Shown here piece by piece: positions 10,801 through 20,255 of a DNA stretch of 20,995 nucleotides. Below the pieces are notes generated by a model, which saw only the letters and a program-made list of their open reading frames with translations, was not told the DNA's origin and did no database searches. Location: the IMG/VR virus record IMGVR_UViG_3300006737_000280, positions 1 through 20,995 of that record; one strand, 5' to 3'. The position numbers and the translations under genes were made by a program. The DNA is from a virus. The number at the start of each line of letters is the position of its first letter. The stretch's first letter is position 1.

Positions 10801-11511
10801 TCTTACCAAGAAGAAGCGGCTGTTACTAGAGCCGAAGAAATGTCTCGGATGGAAGAAGCTAGGGAATTATACCCTGCCCGCAGCGTTCAGCTAAAAGAAA
10901 AAATATCAGAAATAAAAGACACTATTGATATAAATGTCTTTAGTAGTTTAACCGATGAGCAAAGAGAAGTGTTTGCTAATCTTACTGACAGCAATGAGCA
11001 AGATTTAGTTGGCGTTACACCAACACCTGAATTTGCTGCTCTTTATGAAGCAATGCAAAATCATTATGATATAAGCAACAATAAGGCTCTAGGGCCATCT
11101 TCTTCAAAGCTGAAGGTCAATGAAGAGTTTGCTAAAGCGACTCAGCTTTTCATGCTTCTGTCTGGTCAAGGCGTAGTGCCAATAAAAGATGTGAACAGGA
11201 TGCTAACTGGTAAGTTCTCTAGCATGGACAATACAGAAGCACAGCTAACAGGCGATGCGCCAGAAGCAGAAGCGCCGCCAGAACCACAGCCTATAGACCT
11301 TGGCCCTTCTATGACTATCTACAACAACCCAACGAACGAAACATATTTAATAAAAATAAAAGGAAAGATCGGTACATTTAGGGTAGATAGCGAAAGTCTG
11401 TCATCTATACCTAGAAGCCAAATAGAAAATGAAAATGTAACGATCAGAGAAGATGATGGCGAGGATTATAAGAAAAGAAGTTCAAGCTATCTTAAAGGGG
11501 TTTTTAAGTAA
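7864..11511 (+). CDS. Large internal virion protein (gp15-like position)
   Basis: A 1215-aa protein, much longer than T7 gp15 (747 aa). It opens MAMIREKREFRISPIGVARS, then is almost wholly helical and charged, with no membrane segments. A proline-rich, acidic linker (PEAEAPPEPQPIDLGP, residues about 1133-1148) separates a small C-terminal beta-like domain (MTIYNNPTNETYLIKIKGK and onward) that ends KRSSSYLKGVFK. In T7, gp15 and gp16 make the trans-envelope DNA conduit; the role is inferred from position and helical character. No enzyme motif is visible. Shine-Dalgarno TAGGA lies 9-10 bases upstream; a second ATG at 7870 is in frame. The stop overlaps the next start (TAATG, 11509-11513). Confidence 0.75.
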   Translation: MAMIREKREFRISPIGVARSSSAGQITGEAIARNAAKAEAVAYKRAVQDAEKRGIDLANALSGEQVMALDPSTGLPEVHEGPKGLGRVAQQAYQNVLLTRFEQELGTQIDGKMKELALKYDLSPSGFNKAASEYIAQMANTETSTVFSNEIVRVGQAVKQGYAHNLSLKALTRERAEQVDAYNLRIQERQAALEIAARTGNTEQIQLILKQGAVDDQNMANSQLVTASSTKLNSKFDNVAIARGTLRSVIETGNFTHMELLEIQSAVDMGNLGGLSEEIKNALGKDFQDVLSDPSTFEQFTQYANEYMGDAVGASSIKVTKSIQEARVAANSGKNSNSNIMKSADATASGADPSSLVDEVVKAYKDSVTAQQGAVIAGMSNSESSDLMLGVTKRVNGVADGIQRHIVSQLTSKEEIVNVIQFLNNPNAQGLKGIPNNLRDDLEDLVLLDNKTGLGLKKSAITFFEGFKDEVAFKENKIKNDAGIQLYRDVNEAIDSTIRTGSDVDGVNTSYAETMSNIESSKADKEVIERQKASLNNAAATAYIRLAINSAATAEMAEAMAAYAKGIKPSISLPENVRDVLDKARRLGDESTLTTAANNKSQAKIKDLENRTALSEIDKLNSDIGRGMADASDKDNREHIDTVLKLKDDFYTVSSSEQDQGFKAVGQVVLPQSFVSLLDQAANGNVPTGMMNRLLSLYANTSTQIDRNGIESLSNSHSALDANTKAFWDLMSSYQQQSDTPINEAQFKQFADFYKETVRGEGFATVMGSQLAQYAAEETGGTATKNQTATPLQYLQSLTGPDENTPISAAIRNTKMTEMLEASVFAWFADRGGANKIDMPLKDYVTQKAEALYVEDKNVLPEFGETKTIYPLSATLSSDPKVQEMFLNAVRKDLHLMDKDFGWATKEFKLRPVGQNLDTGMTYGVMVKGDDGEFSLYEHSVDVMTYRGYDGDNITETFIVPAFISTKEEKYLKNIRALESYQEEAAVTRAEEMSRMEEARELYPARSVQLKEKISEIKDTIDINVFSSLTDEQREVFANLTDSNEQDLVGVTPTPEFAALYEAMQNHYDISNNKALGPSSSKLKVNEEFAKATQLFMLLSGQGVVPIKDVNRMLTGKFSSMDNTEAQLTGDAPEAEAPPEPQPIDLGPSMTIYNNPTNETYLIKIKGKIGTFRVDSESLSSIPRSQIENENVTIREDDGEDYKKRSSSYLKGVFK

Positions 11512-14500
11512 TGGTCGTTAATCCAAACAGTTTTAGGTATGGCAACTTTGACCAGTTAAGCCCTCAAGACTACAGGCAACCCTCTTTCTCAGATACTTTG
11601 TCTGCATCATTCGGCTATACATATGACCCTGCATATGAAGCGTTTCAAAACAGGCGCAGGTTTGGAACTGTTAGGCAAGAAGGTTATAATCCACTAGAAG
11701 ACCTTGGCGAGTATTCTTTACACGCGATGGAGTTGCGCAGCGCTGTTAGTCCAGAGCATATGATTGAGATGAAACGTGGTATAAATGAGTCTCTTGAAAG
11801 ACGCAGAGTGCTTGGCGAATCTTCATTTATCTCTCAGCTTGGCGCAGGTCTGTTTGATCCTCTTAACTTCTTAGCCTTGCCTTTTGGTGGCCCCACATTG
11901 GGCATAGGGCGGTCAGCACTTAGGGTCGGCGCAGGGACAGCAGCAATTCAAGCAGGTGTTGAGGCGGCTTTAATACAGCCATATGATGCTGTGCAAACTA
12001 GCACTGAAAGTGCAGTAAATGTAGCAGGTGCATTTTTGTTTGGCGGTGCGATGGGTGGGGCTGTATCAATCCCTATCACCAAACGCGCTGCTGCTTACAC
12101 AAAGATAAAAAAGTCACTTGAGAATCAAGCCCAAGCGTTAAGGCAAATAGAATATGCTAGCGAACTTAGCGCAGATGACTTTGGTACAATAGGTTCGCCA
12201 GAACTTAGACCGCTATCTGAGGTGGCTGAATCAGATATAAACAAAAAAATAACAGAGCTTACTGCAAAGCAGCAACAGCTTGTTGCGGCGCCAGAAGAGG
12301 TGCAGTTACATTCGGCAACAGAGATTCAGCTAGAAGAAGTAAGCGCAGAGCTTTCTTTGCATAAAAGAGAACATGCAATAAGAAAGCTTGAAAGCGATGG
12401 CTTTGACCAAAGCAAGATGTGGTCGATGGCTGATAATGTTTTTACTGATAGCGGCTTTTATAAATTTGTATCTACGCCGTTTAAAAGGATCATACAGTCA
12501 AACAAAGCCACAGCCTCTATAAAGGAGGCTACAGTAAGGTTAGCAGGTGATGCAGGTATCAACTTAGTAATGAACACCTTCGGCTTTGCTAGCCCCCTTT
12601 CAGTGCATCAGAGAGCTTCTGCAAGGAATGGCCAGTGGGTTAAAGCGCATGACGAGCTTATTCGCTTGTTCCGTGAGGATGTTGGTCTGTCAAATACATC
12701 TCGGCTTGACATTGATCCTGTTCTTGCTTGGCGCTCTCTAACAAACAGAGATGACAGTTATGGTAATTGGCTTAGACGCATAAACGAAAAGCGAACTAAG
12801 AAAGACACCAACCTTAGTGATCTTGAAAAAAGAAGCATTAAGATTGTAGACGAGTTCTTTCAAAAAGCAGAGCGTGAGTTAAACGATGTTGGTTTGATTG
12901 GGTCAACTAAATCAATAACCAATCGTCTAAAGTCTGTTGAGCGACAGCTTCTTGATTTGGAAGATTCTCTAGCAAGAATGGGGGGTGACGCTAAATTTGC
13001 AAAGCTTCGTGAAGAAGACTTAAGCAGAAAAAGATATTTGGAAAGGCAGAAGTCAGAGCTTGAAGCTAGCTTGCAAGCCTTTAGGGATGAGCCGCAAGAA
13101 CTAACAGATAACTTCCTGCCTCGCTTTTGGGATATGGGGGCAATCAAAGCCCGAAGAGGAGAGCTTTTTGAAATATTGTTTAAGCACTACTCTGAGAACC
13201 CTACAATATGGATGTTTCAGAATAATAAATGGGGGCTAGTTCGTCTAAAAACTGACAGGGGTTCTATAGAAAAACGTGTCAATGAAACAATAGATACAAT
13301 TCTTGGCGACAAAAACCCTACAGATGAAGCTAACATTGGCTTTGGTTATGGAAGATCAAAACACTTTCGCCACAGACAAGTAGACATTCCAAATGAATTA
13401 GTCTGGGACTTTATTGTTCAAGACCCTATTGCAATTATGAAGACTTACACTGCGCGAGTTGCTCCACGACTTGAGTTTAGAAAGCAGTTTGGCGGTGACG
13501 TTGATGATGTCGTTTATAAATTAAGAAGAGACATGGTTGCCAAGGGCTTCTCTGAGGATCAGATTAATAAAGACATGAAAGACTTTATGATTCTGTACGA
13601 TAGAATTGCAGGTGCGGTCTTAGACAATCCATCAGCTTTAAGTCAAAGAACAGCATACATAATGAAGGAAGCTGCTTCTTTAAATTATATGGGCGGTGCT
13701 TGGGCTGCTGCTATTCCTGAGTTTGGCAGAATTATTATGGAGCATGACGGTGGCGTTATGGTGAAAGCCATGCAGGGTATGCTTGATAAAGAAGTGTTGG
13801 CTGCGTCTGCTGCGGAAACTCGCATGAGTGGCGAATCTGTTGATATTGTTAAGGGTACTGCTCATGTTCGCTTAGTCGATGACATGGCAAACAATGTAGA
13901 CGCAGGTGAGTTGTGGAATAAAGCTCGAAATGCTTACTATGTTTTAAATGGACTAGGGCCAGTTACGCAAATTAGTAAAATGCTTGATGGCATGGCTAGA
14001 GCGCATACAATTATTGAGCGCTCAGTAAAGCTATCAGAAGGTAAAGCAACAGAGTTTGAAAAAACATGGCTTGCAAGAAACGGCATTAATGATGAAGCCG
14101 CTTTAGAAATAGCAAAAGCGCCTTGGCAAAAATCTGATAGTGGATTGATTTTAGCTAATACTGAGCAATGGCTTGATAGTATTTATGTTCCAGAAATAGA
14201 TGGCAAGCGCGTTAATATTATTGAAGCAAAAGAAGATGGATCGCCTGTTGGCACACAGGGTGTAGGAGCAAATGGTGAAAGCATATATGTTCCTGCTAGA
14301 TATAATGAAAAATCAAATACTATTTTCTTTGATAGAGAATACATTGAGGGCAAGTTTTTTGAAAACAAGGTTTGGTTAAATCCTAGAAGAGAAGGGATTA
14401 AACCTTTAGAAGATGTTTTTAAAACACCTAAATCTTGGTCTAACTTTGTTATGCTGCATGAGATTATGCACACAAGGTTTAGAGCAAAAGACCTTGGGTT

Positions 14501-15299
14501 TAATAAGGAAACTAACGAAGGTTTTATTGGATACGAAAACAAAATTAACGAACTGGCTTTTGCTGAGTGGAAAAAGCAATCAAAAGTACGACAGCAAACA
14601 GTTGGCGATTTTCGCGCTGCACTAAACACTGGAATCCTAAATACAATTATGATGGCAACCCCTGCGGATAGACCAATTATCAGTGATGGCGTTGCTTTTG
14701 TACCGTATCGTATTGCCAAGAAGTTTGGTTACTCGGAAGACAAAAGATATAAAGGTTACTCTCGCATTGAGAATGGCTTCATGGCTTTGCCGTTTCAATT
14801 CTACAGCTATACCCTTGCTAACGTAAACAAGATGGTTGGCGGTATGGCTCACGGTCAAATGAAGAACAGAGTTGTTGGTGTTGCAGCAATGCTTGGCTTG
14901 GGTTACTTGTCTGTTAAAGCAAAGACTCCAGATTTTGTTTGGGAAGAAATGGAATGGAGGGACAGATTTGCTAGGTCTTACGACTCAAGCGGCTTAACAG
15001 CGCTTTACAGTGATTTGTTCTATACCTCTATGCATACAAGCTTGGCGCTTGGTGGACCAAATATAACTAATGGATACTTAAGCCCCAAGTTTCCACAAGA
15101 ACCAAGTATGGCTGATGCAATCACAGGACTTGCAGGTGCAGGGCCATCTATAACTTACGATATTGGAGCAGGTGCGGCTCAATTTGTTTCTGGCGATTAT
15201 GGTGAGGGCGCTAAGAATGTATTTAGGAATCTTCCTTTTACTAGAATGTGGTTCTGGAAAGACGAGATGAATCAAATGACTCGCGCTTGGTCGCAGTAA
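11511..15299 (+). CDS. Internal virion protein D (T7 gp16-like) with an HExxH metalloprotease-like insert
   Basis: A 1262-aa protein, close to T7 gp16 (1318 aa), the main DNA-ejection motor. Residues about 105-185 are Gly/Ala-rich and hydrophobic (AGLFDPLNFLALPFGGPTLG and AGAFLFGGAMGGAVSIPI), able to cross membranes. A long, charged helical part follows. Near the C-terminus the blocks FRAALNTGILNTIM, SRIENGFMALPFQFYS and FRNLPFTRMWFWKDEM are those of large ejection proteins of related phages. Between them, at about residues 885-1030, is a zincin-like segment: IFFDREYIEGKFFENKVW, then HEIMH (H983, E984, H987) and INELAF with E1014 a likely third zinc ligand. There is no lytic transglycosylase motif like the one at the N-terminus of T7 gp16, so peptidoglycan or periplasmic cleavage may be done by this domain instead; that is inference. 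Confidence 0.85.
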   Translation: MVVNPNSFRYGNFDQLSPQDYRQPSFSDTLSASFGYTYDPAYEAFQNRRRFGTVRQEGYNPLEDLGEYSLHAMELRSAVSPEHMIEMKRGINESLERRRVLGESSFISQLGAGLFDPLNFLALPFGGPTLGIGRSALRVGAGTAAIQAGVEAALIQPYDAVQTSTESAVNVAGAFLFGGAMGGAVSIPITKRAAAYTKIKKSLENQAQALRQIEYASELSADDFGTIGSPELRPLSEVAESDINKKITELTAKQQQLVAAPEEVQLHSATEIQLEEVSAELSLHKREHAIRKLESDGFDQSKMWSMADNVFTDSGFYKFVSTPFKRIIQSNKATASIKEATVRLAGDAGINLVMNTFGFASPLSVHQRASARNGQWVKAHDELIRLFREDVGLSNTSRLDIDPVLAWRSLTNRDDSYGNWLRRINEKRTKKDTNLSDLEKRSIKIVDEFFQKAERELNDVGLIGSTKSITNRLKSVERQLLDLEDSLARMGGDAKFAKLREEDLSRKRYLERQKSELEASLQAFRDEPQELTDNFLPRFWDMGAIKARRGELFEILFKHYSENPTIWMFQNNKWGLVRLKTDRGSIEKRVNETIDTILGDKNPTDEANIGFGYGRSKHFRHRQVDIPNELVWDFIVQDPIAIMKTYTARVAPRLEFRKQFGGDVDDVVYKLRRDMVAKGFSEDQINKDMKDFMILYDRIAGAVLDNPSALSQRTAYIMKEAASLNYMGGAWAAAIPEFGRIIMEHDGGVMVKAMQGMLDKEVLAASAAETRMSGESVDIVKGTAHVRLVDDMANNVDAGELWNKARNAYYVLNGLGPVTQISKMLDGMARAHTIIERSVKLSEGKATEFEKTWLARNGINDEAALEIAKAPWQKSDSGLILANTEQWLDSIYVPEIDGKRVNIIEAKEDGSPVGTQGVGANGESIYVPARYNEKSNTIFFDREYIEGKFFENKVWLNPRREGIKPLEDVFKTPKSWSNFVMLHEIMHTRFRAKDLGFNKETNEGFIGYENKINELAFAEWKKQSKVRQQTVGDFRAALNTGILNTIMMATPADRPIISDGVAFVPYRIAKKFGYSEDKRYKGYSRIENGFMALPFQFYSYTLANVNKMVGGMAHGQMKNRVVGVAAMLGLGYLSVKAKTPDFVWEEMEWRDRFARSYDSSGLTALYSDLFYTSMHTSLALGGPNITNGYLSPKFPQEPSMADAITGLAGAGPSITYDIGAGAAQFVSGDYGEGAKNVFRNLPFTRMWFWKDEMNQMTRAWSQ
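14160..14605 (+). other. Zincin-like (HExxH) domain within the internal virion protein D
   Basis: This segment (about residues 884-1032 of the 1262-aa protein) contains the HExxH motif (bases 14457-14471) and a downstream Glu in INELAF, typical of zinc-dependent peptidases of the gluzincin kind. Similar HEIMH domains are inserted in large virion proteins of other marine phages as I recall them. It begins after ANTEQWLDS and ends before VGDFRAALN, where the gp16-like sequence resumes. Confidence 0.6.
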
Positions 15300-15369: not shown

Positions 15370-18300
15370 ATGACCATAGATATTTCCAACAACAATCCAA
15401 GAGCAAGCTACGCTGTAGCTCAAGGCGCAACGCAGACTTCATTTACTGTCAACTTTGAGTTCTTTGAGAACGCAGATTTGAATGTCTATGTGGATGGGAC
15501 AAAGAAAACCCTAACGGCACATTACACTGTAAGCGGCGGTAGCGGATCAACTGGTACTGTTACGATGTCAGTCACAGGGGCGACTGGCGGCTCTACTGTG
15601 GTAATTACACGCGACACCACTATTGAACGCACTACTGACTTCTCAGCAGGTGCAGATATTAATAGGGCTGCGCTTAACACCCAGTTAGATACTCTTACGG
15701 CTATGGTCGCTGACATTGAGGATCAAGCAAGTCGTGCGATCCAAGTCTCAGATCACGAAACTGCGCCCTCTTTGGAGTTGCCTTCGCTTGATAGTCGCAA
15801 AGGTACGGTTATGGGCTTTAACGCTAGCACTGGTGCTGTGGAAGCAGGGCCAAAGATTGCTGACGTTAGTACGCTTGCTGCTGTTACGGCTGACATTGCA
15901 ACACTAGCTGACATTGAAGATGGAACAGATGCAACAGATGCTATTCAAACTGCTGCGTCTAATTCTTCTAACATCACAACGGTTGCAGGAATCTCTGGGA
16001 ATGTAACTACGGTTGCAGGTATCGCATCTAACGTGACTTCAGTTGCAGGTAATGCAACAAACATTAATACAGTTGCAGGTGATACCGCCGACATTAATGC
16101 TTTGGCAGGAAAAACCACAGAGCTTGGCTTGCTTGGGACATCTGACGCTGTTTCAGACATGAACACTCTTGGAACGTCTGATGTTGTTTCCGACATGAAT
16201 ACGCTCGGCACATCGAGCAATGTCACAAACATGGACACGCTTGCAGGAATAAGCAGCAACATCACAACGGTTGCAGGTGTGGCAAGCAATGTAACCACGG
16301 TTGCAGGTTCAATCTCAAACGTAAACACAACAGCAAGCAACATCTCTTCCGTAAACACAAACGCGACTAACATCTCAGCAATCCAAGGTGCGTCTGGAAA
16401 TGCGTCAACTGCTACGACTAAAGCATCGGAGGCAGCGACATCTGCGACAGGTGCGGCGGCCAGTGCTACCAGTGCAGCAACAGCACAAACGGCTGCGGAA
16501 GCTGCTCGAGACAGCGCCCTAGCTTCATTGGATAGCTTCGATGACAGATACCTTGGGGCAAAGAGTTCAGCGCCTAGCGTTGATAACGATGGAAACGCCT
16601 TGGCTTCTGGTGCGCTCTACTATGATACAACTGCAAACGCGATGCAGGTCTATACTGGCTCTGCATGGGTAGCAGCTTACGCCTCTTTGTCTGGCGCATT
16701 GCTAGTTACAAACAACCTGTCTGATTTAAACAACGCAGCTACGTCTGCAACTAACCTTGGGCTTGGCACTGGTAATACACCCACGTTCAACGGCGTAAAT
16801 ACCACAGGTGACATTTCGTTTGGCGATAGCGATGTAGCTAAATTTGGGGCTTCAAATGATTTACAAATATTTCACGACTCCAATAACTCACATATCGTAG
16901 ATAGTGGCACTGGGGATTTATTCGTTAAGAACGATAGCACCACCTACTTTATGAACGCCGCCGGTACTGAGTATAAAGCATACATGCAGTCAAACGGTGG
17001 TTGCGCTTTATACTTCGACAATTCAAAGAAATTTGAGACAAGTGCAGTAGGTTCTAAAACTGACCAACTGTTTGGTATCTCAGATGCCGACACAGGAATT
17101 GCATTGGGCGCAAATGGCAGCGACATTATGCAGTTTTATACTGGAAACAACGAGAGGATGCGCCTTTCATCCGATGGCAATTTAGGCGTGGGAACTAGCA
17201 GTCCAAACCAAGCACTTGAGATTTCAAAAACGAATGGCGGTGCTGTTATACGCTTGAATAACCCAGACGCGACGGTTTCAGCTGGCGAATCTTTGGGAAG
17301 AATTGAGTGGCAATCAAACGATGCTTCTAATCCAGGAGGTACTGGAACACAAGCTATAATCAATGTGATTGATTCCGATACGTATGGAACTTCTTACGAT
17401 ATGACTTTTGCAACCAGTGTGTCTGGAACAACAGCAGAACGTATGCGCATCGACAGCAGTGGAAACGTTGGCATTGGGACTAGCAGCCCTGACGCATTAG
17501 CCCACATTTACAGCGGCGCATCTGGCGTAACAAACCCTCACAGCTACACCAAATTGCACGTTGAAAGCGCTGACCATGCTGCCATTCAGCTAAGTGGTAG
17601 CTCGGGCGGTGAGCAATGGATTTGGTTTGCAGATGATACCACAGCAACCCCTGTTGGTGGGCTAACCTATTATCATGGTGGCAATTACATGGGCTTCCGT
17701 GTGAACAGTGCGGAGAGGGCCAGAATAGACAGCAGTGGCAATCTCTTGGTAGGGAAATCTTCAACAGGTATCGGAACTGTAGGGGCAGAGTTAAAATCTA
17801 CAGGTGAACTGGTTGCCACTGTAAGCAATGACGCATGTGCATTTTTAAACCGCAAAAGCAGTGATGGCGACATCGTACAGTTACGCAAAGACGGCTCAAC
17901 TGTGGGGAGTATTGGTACTGACAACGGCGGTGATTTATATTTAGGGAACAGTGCTACAGGACTTCTTTTTGCAGGTGGCTCACAGGCCATCCTACCTTGG
18001 AACCCCTCTGGCCCAACATCACAGGACGACTACGTTAATCTAGGTCTTAGCAACCATCGGTTCGACAACATTTATGCGACCAATGGCACAATTCAAACAT
18101 CTGACCGCAATGAAAAGCAAGACATTGCATCACTCACAGATGCAGAAATCACCGCAGCAAAATCCATCAGCAAGCTGTTTAAAACATTCAAGTGGAAAGA
18201 CAAGGTTGCATCTAAAGGTGACGCTGCTCGTACACACACAGGTGTCATTGCCCAAGAAGTAGAAGCTGCCATGTCAGACGCAGGCCTAGATGCAGGGAAC

Positions 18301-18564
18301 TATGCGTTCTTTATTAGCACGACATGGTGGGAAACAAGCACAGAAGTTGCGGCTGTTGAAGCTGACGAAGAAAACGGCATAGAAGCGCAAGAAGCCTACA
18401 CTCGAATAGACACTTTCGCCACGGCAGACGAAGCACCAGAAGGCGCAACAGAACGTAACAGAAAGGGTATCCGTTATCCTGAGTTGTTGTCATTCATTGG
18501 CGCGGCCACAGAGCAAAGATTAACTAACATCGAAACTAGATTGGACGCACTAGAGGCAGAATAA
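15370..18564 (+). CDS. Tail fibre with gp17-like N-terminus and S74 self-cleaving chaperone
   Basis: A 1064-aa receptor-binding fibre. Residues 1-150 match the T7 gp17 N-terminal tail-attachment region (YAVAQGATQTSFTVNFEFFE; RDTTIERTTDFSAGADINR). Residues about 198-340 are ten-residue repeats of the type SNVTTVAG-IA that would form a stalk, followed by an Ala-rich coiled region (about 360-385). A beta-rich shaft and tip run from 390 to about 905 and include three units of ERMRIDSSGNVGIGTSSP type. From SDRNEKQDI (S911, K916) to the end is an intramolecular chaperone of the peptidase S74 family, which cuts itself off before S911 after trimer folding; the Ser-Lys dyad is intact and the typical GVIAQEVEAA motif is present. 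It shares TAATG with the next gene. Confidence 0.93.
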   Translation: MTIDISNNNPRASYAVAQGATQTSFTVNFEFFENADLNVYVDGTKKTLTAHYTVSGGSGSTGTVTMSVTGATGGSTVVITRDTTIERTTDFSAGADINRAALNTQLDTLTAMVADIEDQASRAIQVSDHETAPSLELPSLDSRKGTVMGFNASTGAVEAGPKIADVSTLAAVTADIATLADIEDGTDATDAIQTAASNSSNITTVAGISGNVTTVAGIASNVTSVAGNATNINTVAGDTADINALAGKTTELGLLGTSDAVSDMNTLGTSDVVSDMNTLGTSSNVTNMDTLAGISSNITTVAGVASNVTTVAGSISNVNTTASNISSVNTNATNISAIQGASGNASTATTKASEAATSATGAAASATSAATAQTAAEAARDSALASLDSFDDRYLGAKSSAPSVDNDGNALASGALYYDTTANAMQVYTGSAWVAAYASLSGALLVTNNLSDLNNAATSATNLGLGTGNTPTFNGVNTTGDISFGDSDVAKFGASNDLQIFHDSNNSHIVDSGTGDLFVKNDSTTYFMNAAGTEYKAYMQSNGGCALYFDNSKKFETSAVGSKTDQLFGISDADTGIALGANGSDIMQFYTGNNERMRLSSDGNLGVGTSSPNQALEISKTNGGAVIRLNNPDATVSAGESLGRIEWQSNDASNPGGTGTQAIINVIDSDTYGTSYDMTFATSVSGTTAERMRIDSSGNVGIGTSSPDALAHIYSGASGVTNPHSYTKLHVESADHAAIQLSGSSGGEQWIWFADDTTATPVGGLTYYHGGNYMGFRVNSAERARIDSSGNLLVGKSSTGIGTVGAELKSTGELVATVSNDACAFLNRKSSDGDIVQLRKDGSTVGSIGTDNGGDLYLGNSATGLLFAGGSQAILPWNPSGPTSQDDYVNLGLSNHRFDNIYATNGTIQTSDRNEKQDIASLTDAEITAAKSISKLFKTFKWKDKVASKGDAARTHTGVIAQEVEAAMSDAGLDAGNYAFFISTTWWETSTEVAAVEADEENGIEAQEAYTRIDTFATADEAPEGATERNRKGIRYPELLSFIGAATEQRLTNIETRLDALEAE
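15961..16380 (+). repeat. 30-bp (10-residue) tandem repeats coding the fibre stalk
   Basis: About twelve imperfect 30-base units, the first at 15961-15990, 15991-16020, 16021-16050, 16051-16080 and 16081-16110; shared codons are -aac-atc/gtc-acaacggttgcagg-. The middle units (about 16111-16250) are degenerate with TLGTSD and VSDMN variants. They encode V/I-x-T-V-A-G turns. A variable number of such units could change fibre length. They are protein-coding and not a CRISPR array. Confidence 0.8.
17152..17763 (+). repeat. Three dispersed 54-base beta-motif units in the fibre shaft
   Basis: The units at 17152-17205 (E595, ERMRLSSDGNLGVGTSSP), 17437-17490 (E690, ERMRIDSSGNVGIGTSSP) and 17713-17763 (E782, ERARIDSSGNLLVG followed by KSS) recur every 95 and 92 residues. 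They are characteristic of trimeric beta-structured fibres that carry a C-terminal S74 chaperone. Confidence 0.75.
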
Positions 18565-19405: not shown

Positions 19406-19788
19406 TACAAGCGCTTATAGCCCCCCTCACAGAGCTTGCAGGGGGATGGTTAAAAGGGAAGGCAGACAAGCAAGCTGCCGAAGCCAAGCTGAAGCTGACT
19501 GAAGCAGAGGCCAAGGCTAAAATAATGCTTAGTAAAGAAACTTCCGTTGCTGACTGGGAACGGATCATGGCCCAAGGCTCTCAGACTTCTTGGAAGGACG
19601 AATGGCTAACAATTTTATTTAGTATTCCATTGGTGCTTGTGTTCCTTGGCGATACTGGCAGGGACATTGTTGCCAATGGCTTCGCTGCTTTGGAGACTAT
19701 GCCTGACTGGTATCAATACACACTTGGTGTTATTGTCGCTGCAAGTTTTGGCGTTAGGTCAGCAACTAGATTCTTTGGGAGGAAGTAA
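19402..19788 (+). CDS. Putative holin of the gene-transfer-agent type
   Basis: A 128-aa protein with an N-terminal amphipathic segment (residues 1-20), an Ala/Lys/Glu helix (20-48), then hydrophobic segments at about 68-83 (WLTILFSIPLVLVFLG) and 104-119 (YQYTLGVIVAASFGVR). The overall pattern, including the KDEW(L) and Gly-Asp block and the terminal ATRFFGRK, resembles the holin family of alphaproteobacterial gene transfer agents and related phages. It is next to the endolysin (TAATG, 19786-19790), as is usual. If it is the pore former, the previous 68-aa protein would be its partner; sequence alone does not decide. Confidence 0.75.
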   Translation: MIQALIAPLTELAGGWLKGKADKQAAEAKLKLTEAEAKAKIMLSKETSVADWERIMAQGSQTSWKDEWLTILFSIPLVLVFLGDTGRDIVANGFAALETMPDWYQYTLGVIVAASFGVRSATRFFGRK

Positions 19789-20255
19789 TGGCATTTAAAT
19801 TATCAGATAGAAGTTTGTCTCGTCTTCGTGGTGTTCACCCTGATCTGGTCAAGGTGGTGAAGGCTGCGATTGACGTTACTGATGTAGACTTTGGTGTTGG
19901 AATTGGTTTGAGAACCGAGGAGGAACAGGCTGCTCTTGTCGCTAAGGGCGCATCACAAACAATGAAGAGCAAACACTTGCGGCAAGAGGATGGCTTCTGT
20001 CATGCCGTCGATCTCTTTGCTTATGTTGGCGGCAATGTGGATTGGTCACTACCTCTCTATGATAACATCGCTGATGCAATGAAGAGGGGTGCGTTAGCTC
20101 ACTCCGTTCAATTGCGTTGGGGTGCTGCTTGGTCTGTCCCAAATGTTATGGAGTGGGAAGGTACAATGGAAGAGGCGATGAACTCTTACATAGACTTGCG
20201 CCGTTCTCAAGGTCGCCGCCCCTTCATTGATGGACCTCATTTTGAATTGATGTAG
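19788..20255 (+). CDS. Endolysin, M15-family L-Ala-D-Glu peptidase
   Basis: A 155-aa zinc peptidase that would cut the peptide stems of peptidoglycan. Residues 1-30 contain SDRSLSRLRGVHPDLVKVV, the T5-endolysin-like start of this family. Zinc ligands appear to be H63 (SKHL), D75 (HAVDL) and H151 (PHFEL). A five-residue insert (QEDGF) separates H63 from CHAVD relative to the commonest SRHxTGHAVD form; variants with such an insert occur in the family. No signal peptide is present, so export needs a holin. The start has GGAGG upstream. The last 19 bases overlap the opposing regulator gene, so late transcription could run into its antisense. Confidence 0.93.
   Translation: MAFKLSDRSLSRLRGVHPDLVKVVKAAIDVTDVDFGVGIGLRTEEEQAALVAKGASQTMKSKHLRQEDGFCHAVDLFAYVGGNVDWSLPLYDNIADAMKRGALAHSVQLRWGAAWSVPNVMEWEGTMEEAMNSYIDLRRSQGRRPFIDGPHFELM

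Follow-up and report, generated by a model that had tools for sequence, protein, structure and literature searches.

The 20,995-nucleotide window analysed here (positions 1 to 20,995 of IMG/VR virus record IMGVR_UViG_3300006737_000280) encodes a T7 gp16-like protein of 1262 residues that carries an inserted zincin-like cassette. The cassette, residues ~888-1029, is best read as an accessory zinc peptidase of predicted activity that would be delivered with the DNA and act on host proteins, a reading to which we assign a probability of roughly 0.6. Judged by sequence comparison, the cassette has been exchanged, relocated, lost and replaced among relatives, and is under purifying selection.

A probable ejection protein carrying an insert

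An earlier note, made from the letters of the DNA, had labelled the protein gp16-like and had reported no visible transglycosylase. The label is supported by phrog_342 ('internal virion protein with endolysin domain'), which matches residues 22-467 (E=1e-33). A second profile, phrog_16310, matches residues 470-893 (E=8e-15). The gene order gp14-gp15-gp16 together with the phrog_342 match is that of a T7 gp16-like internal virion protein (Table 1). The phrog_342 match begins at profile position 221, so that the N-terminal endolysin/transglycosylase part of the family is left uncovered, and Pfam gave no lytic transglycosylase (SLT) match in the 1262-residue protein; the second statement holds as well. 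An N-terminal transglycosylase is not universal among gp16-like proteins, and P22-like phages are without one (PMC8954989). The gp15-like protein gave no Pfam match and no peptidoglycan-hydrolase domain was seen in it, nor did Pfam reveal any other peptidoglycan hydrolase among the virion ORFs tested. As close relatives of the clade in culture are lacking, it is from T7 that we argue that the 1262-residue protein is probably packaged in the capsid and ejected with the DNA.

Elsewhere in the window, a 155-residue ORF (19788-20255, +), which Peptidase_M15_4 matches weakly (E=0.018), is probably the endolysin of a lysis cassette, and positions 15370-18564 (+) encode a 1064-residue tail-fibre-like protein with a repetitive N-terminal part and a C-terminal S74 chaperone (E=9e-13). 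A search of genome contigs for a host returned only two MAG contigs, one from Euryarchaeota and one from Rhodobacterales, which does not allow a safe host call.

Table 1. Features of the ejection-protein genes and of the inserted cassette (positions in the window).
Feature	Position	Strand	Basis or remark
gp14-like internal virion protein, 145 aa	7415..7852	+	phrog_418 'internal virion protein', E=1.5e-8
gp15-like partner protein, 1215 aa	7864..11511	+	gene order, between the gp14-like and gp16-like ORFs
gp16-like internal virion (probable DNA-ejection) protein, 1262 aa, into which the cassette is inserted	11511..15299	+	ORF; phrog_342; phrog_16310
Type A zincin cassette (predicted), ~residues 888-1029, ~140 aa	14172..14597	+	absent as a block in insert-less homologues; borders good to a few codons
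HEIMH, residues 983-987: two predicted zinc-ligand His and predicted catalytic Glu984	14457..14471	+	invariance; AlphaFold helix
Loop between the two active-site helices	14472..14531	+	nesting place of extra ~80-250-aa domains in relatives
Y1008-E1009-N1010-x-I/M-N1013-x-L/M-A1016, second helix with predicted third zinc ligand E1009	14532..14558	+	invariance

That the zincin-like domain is an insert was confirmed by homologues which run straight through the site: these align up to W887, and the alignment resumes at ~residue 1029-1034 of the 1262-residue protein. The range first proposed for the domain, 14160-14605 (residues 884-1031), matches these borders within a few codons. Homologues without the insert include relatives L008-L013, L030-L033, L106-L108, L114, L119 and L141, as well as Pelagibacter phage EXVC031P Hodr (L034), the sole isolate aligned along its length. 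The gp16-like gene of Hodr is annotated merely as 'hypothetical protein'. No zincin insert was found in cultured phages by tblastn. In a large-insert analysis of 66 proteins, one major variable block was located at the cassette site, and DNA comparison of near-identical relatives shows similarity stopping exactly there. The dN/dS of the insert ranged from 0.03 to 0.37 over 15 pairs (one further pair was saturated), within the purifying-selection range and mostly similar to that of the scaffold. The insert is also spanned by an antisense ORF of 178 residues (14183-14719, -), but the numbers of stops counted in relatives speak against its being a conserved gene.

Predicted active site and fold

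Any HExxH occurs in 1.4% of 5000 shuffles of the 1262-residue protein, and the motif was judged to be real on its conservation across 24 insert-bearing type A homologues (the kind found in the window), pairs of which are down to ~40% identical. The H983, E984 and H987 described in the earlier note are invariant in all 24 aligned carriers, as are R989, Y1008, E1009, N1010, N1013 and A1016. The same note had chosen E1014 (in INELAF) as the suitably placed Glu, and here the alignment leads elsewhere: position 1014 varies between D, E, Q, K, R and N, whereas E1009 is invariant, making E1009 (of YEN) the likely third zinc ligand. This pattern corresponds to E155/D159/A162 of a second kind of domain, type B. 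Across 20 type B domains, with identity to the first down to 21%, ten columns are invariant (F28, G55, H112, D128, H136, E137, L138, H140, E155 and A162).

An AlphaFold model of type A, computed from a 25-sequence alignment, has a mean pLDDT of 78 (core >90) and places strands first, followed by helix 99-115 with the HExxH and helix 128-148 with E1009. The type B model (pLDDT 92.8, pTM 0.89) runs from a helix through strands 30-34, 55-59 and 65-69 to the HExxH helix (126-140) and the Glu helix (151-167). Both models thus predict a zincin-like topology, in line with the metalloprotease fold proposed earlier; a likeness to solved zincins was not found, as Foldseek against the PDB returned nothing significant, zincin or other, for either type. 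The fold assignment accordingly rests on topology and conserved residues. Foldseek against viral models returned large unnamed phage proteins together with weak SprT-like/metallopeptidase entries. A PDB sequence search returned nothing, and no usable model for the insert came from Pfam, PHROG or NCBIfam. Two families matched below the cut-off, EpmC (E=0.062) and WLM (E=0.05); the latter, in relative L027, was the sole sub-threshold match to span the motif.

Exchange, nesting and replacement of the domain

The distribution of the domain was followed in 77 distinct readable homologues, obtained from a scan with the C-terminal block (best 80 of 318 relatives) and a pattern search in which one of six patterns lies in the insert; homologues from motif-derived patterns were left out of the counts to limit bias. 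Within this set, whose scan part covers the best 80 of 318 relatives, an HExxH domain is present in 65 homologues and absent from 12. The domain is located at site 891 in 59 of the 77, and six have an HELHH at site 572, their site 891 being unoccupied. A filled site that had lost the HExxH while its surroundings were conserved, which would have spoken against the zincin, was looked for and seen in none of the 77.

Type A is located at site 891. The ~195-residue type B (HEL[HQMT]H) is found either there (e.g. L081, L083, L103) or at site 572 (L112, L113, L123, L145, L148). In L257, residues 744-900 of that protein form a type B domain at a third scaffold position (near residue 490), between the win483 and win528 matches. 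Profile comparison with hhalign matched the cores of types A and B1 at 98.4%, A and B2 (the site-572 copies) at 95.9%, and B1 and B2 at 99.7%, with reversed controls below 2% and scaffold segments below 1%. These profile matches make the two types homologous, with type B having moved within the scaffold.

An exchange is seen between L083 (type B) and L084 (type A). These share 89.6% DNA identity over the 6.36 kb leading up to the site, the gp15-like gene included, and 88.3% identity beyond it; at the site itself, 599 nt in L083 and 377 nt in L084 show no similarity. The same breakpoints separate L125 and L126 from L132. In L125/L126 the type A domain reads NKEIL for HEIMH and YAL for YEN, and an intact type B domain (HELTH) lies inside it, an arrangement that, read from the sequences, is replacement by nesting. 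L254 shows this arrangement too, and L237 is apparently a separate case of a ligand-less type A domain holding an intact type B.

Further domains are found in the loop between the HExxH and Glu helices. There, L022 has 30 nt and L027 has 768 nt, with 89% and 87% DNA identity on the flanks, and extra domains are nested at this place in L025, L028, L070, L102 and L104 as well. The ~250-residue nested domain of L027 (6352-7116) displays ADP-ribosyltransferase-like motifs by eye (VHFT, MYFT); as Pfam, PHROG and NCBIfam lent no support, this identity was set aside. A nested domain of ~110 residues with the pattern LYR...GRWFTDD..EA.WY (L028:6382-6744, L070:1281-1640) recurs in giant LPD39-bearing phage proteins and in stand-alone 173-residue ORFs (L261-L267). 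On a backbone tree from which the insert columns had been left out, at least 14 state changes are required, compared with 26 in shuffles; this was a quick tree with long-branch warnings, and the pairwise DNA comparisons are independent of it.

Proposed role and comparison with known systems

The cassette is accessory, since the scaffold works without it and close relatives have a different zincin, a nested extra domain or another site. Its absence in some phages, its exchange between near-identical partners and its movement between sites argue for a target-driven role as opposed to fixed virion processing, and suggest that phages swap it as a weapon aimed at the host, and that it is not a constant component of the injection apparatus. 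We infer both the peptidase activity and a host substrate. In the mechanism we propose, H983, H987 and E1009 would bind the metal and E984 would activate water, as in a zincin-type zinc-dependent metallopeptidase. Its carrier, a T7-gp16-like protein, would be packaged in the capsid and ejected together with the DNA, the cassette occupying a loop in the C-terminal half. Following ejection the cassette would act at the cytoplasmic side of the inner membrane and cut one or a few host proteins, either defence or take-over targets, and it would be exchanged as hosts change. Cytoplasmic display is likely, because the insert lies in the C-terminal half and the C-terminal part of T7 gp16 is presumed to reach the cytoplasm, its N-terminal part being periplasmic (PMC8954989). 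Aligned with T7 gp16, the 1262-residue protein gave an N-terminal match of 55.8% and a colinear, non-significant C-terminal match of 1.9%; as support extends to the N-terminal match only, placing the insert on T7 gp16 itself was abandoned.

The virion itself could instead be the substrate, with the zincin cutting gp16 or gp15/gp14, either while the particle is assembled or once the protein has been ejected, perhaps so as to free the C-terminal part. Autoprocessing has been proposed for several polyvalent MPTases, among them P1 DdrB, for which processing would precede packaging (Iyer et al., PMC5512222), and a cut at this mid-polypeptide domain would release the last ~230 residues. We nevertheless consider such processing unlikely. 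The 12 of 77 homologues without any HExxH domain (scan part: best 80 of 318) retain the conserved C-terminal block, the gp15-like and gp16-like DNA of L083 and L084 is ~90% identical while their zincins are strongly different, the domain is found at three scaffold positions, and N4 vRNAP is packaged uncut despite its MPTase (PMC5512222). An envelope-penetration enzyme, replacing the missing T7 transglycosylase and cutting peptidoglycan peptides or envelope proteins for the channel, would suit both the uncovered N-terminal endolysin part of phrog_342 and the lack of another peptidoglycan hydrolase among the virion ORFs tested with Pfam. However, the insert-less relatives likewise have no known hydrolase domain, and rapid swapping suits a variable target better than peptidoglycan. 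To our knowledge, moreover, the peptidoglycan metallopeptidases are of the LAS type (M15, M23, M74), with no HExxH zincins among them. The site also lies far from the N-terminal transglycosylase region of T7, in the presumed cytoplasmic part (PMC8954989), and overall an envelope role appears improbable. Among the targets the earlier note had put forward, host proteins are thus the most likely, if unproven, virion proteins are less likely, and the envelope is unsupported.

The motif could also belong to a metal domain that is not a peptidase, such as an Fe/2-oxoglutarate hydroxylase (aKG-HExxH proteins) modifying host proteins. HExxH is present in such enzymes too, as pointed out for the N4 C1 domain (PMC12633501), and the weak EpmC match would fit, but that match spans query residues 42-83, ahead of the HExxH, and both the succession of HExxH helix and Glu helix and the E-x3-N/D-x2-A pattern are those of a zincin, so that we regard a hydroxylase as very improbable. 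Scarcely any weight is given to a structural filler or assembly domain in which the HExxH is retained for folding round a structural metal without catalysis. The N4 MPTase region is needed for encapsidation (PMC5512222) and the catalysis of the HExxH domain here is a prediction; against this, 24 type A and 20 type B domains all keep the catalytic Glu along with the ligands, and loss of the type A ligands is accompanied by an intact zincin inside.

Returning to an injected peptidase directed at the host, the chances are about even that T7-type ejection proteins of uncultured marine podoviruses carry a cassette slot for injected protease effectors, in which types A and B are exchanged, moved, nested, replaced and joined by further domains, tracking host targets. 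Internal virion proteins lie in marine metaviromic islands for reasons called 'more obscure' (Mizuno et al. 2014, PMC3909814), and a pelagiphage island adjoins an internal virion protein (PMC6487183). If true, the slot would explain the presence of these proteins in the islands, with cassette exchange as a concrete cause for their variability in marine viromes. Injected zincins have been predicted since 2017 and hardly tested; the near-isogenic pair L083/L084, in which mainly the zincin differs, together with the losses and the dead zincins holding live replacements, offers a way to test what an injected phage protease does.

Zincin MPTases in injected phage proteins have precedents in the N4 vRNAP C1 domain and P1 DdrB (Iyer et al. 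2017, PMC5512222). Like the cassette, the polyvalent MPTases, which that study divides into 12 clades, have a small strand core with an HExxH helix followed by a Glu helix, accept variable inserts between the last two helices, and are located in large phage proteins that presumably enter the cell along with the DNA (PMC5512222). The N4 vRNAP MPTase has no detectable sequence relation to the cassette (hhalign 11.6% over 10 columns, motif only), and Pfam PF18818 (MPTase-PolyVal) did not match it at E<=10. The cassette differs further in its carrier, a T7-gp16-like ejection protein, and in moving between three positions on a single scaffold; the study of polyvalent MPTases makes no mention of gp16, ejection proteins or pelagiphages (PMC5512222). 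T7 gp16 belongs to the same scaffold family, with a colinear membrane-active stretch (window protein 76-182, T7 294-402). It has an N-terminal transglycosylase and no zincin, whereas the 1262-residue protein lacks that N-terminal part and has the zincin in its C-terminal half. A review of ejection proteins describes domain mosaicism and mentions neither protease nor zinc (PMC8954989). The peptidoglycan-hydrolase domains swapped between gp15 and gp16 of T7 and K1E/K1-5 are, like the cassette, mosaic enzymatic domains (PMC8954989), but the cassette involves another enzyme class and another part of the scaffold, and near-identical genomes show its exchange at one precise site, along with cases of nesting and replacement. 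The cassette is best read as resembling the polyvalent-protein MPTases in kind, in the form of an unannotated, exchangeable unit housed in a T7-type ejection protein.
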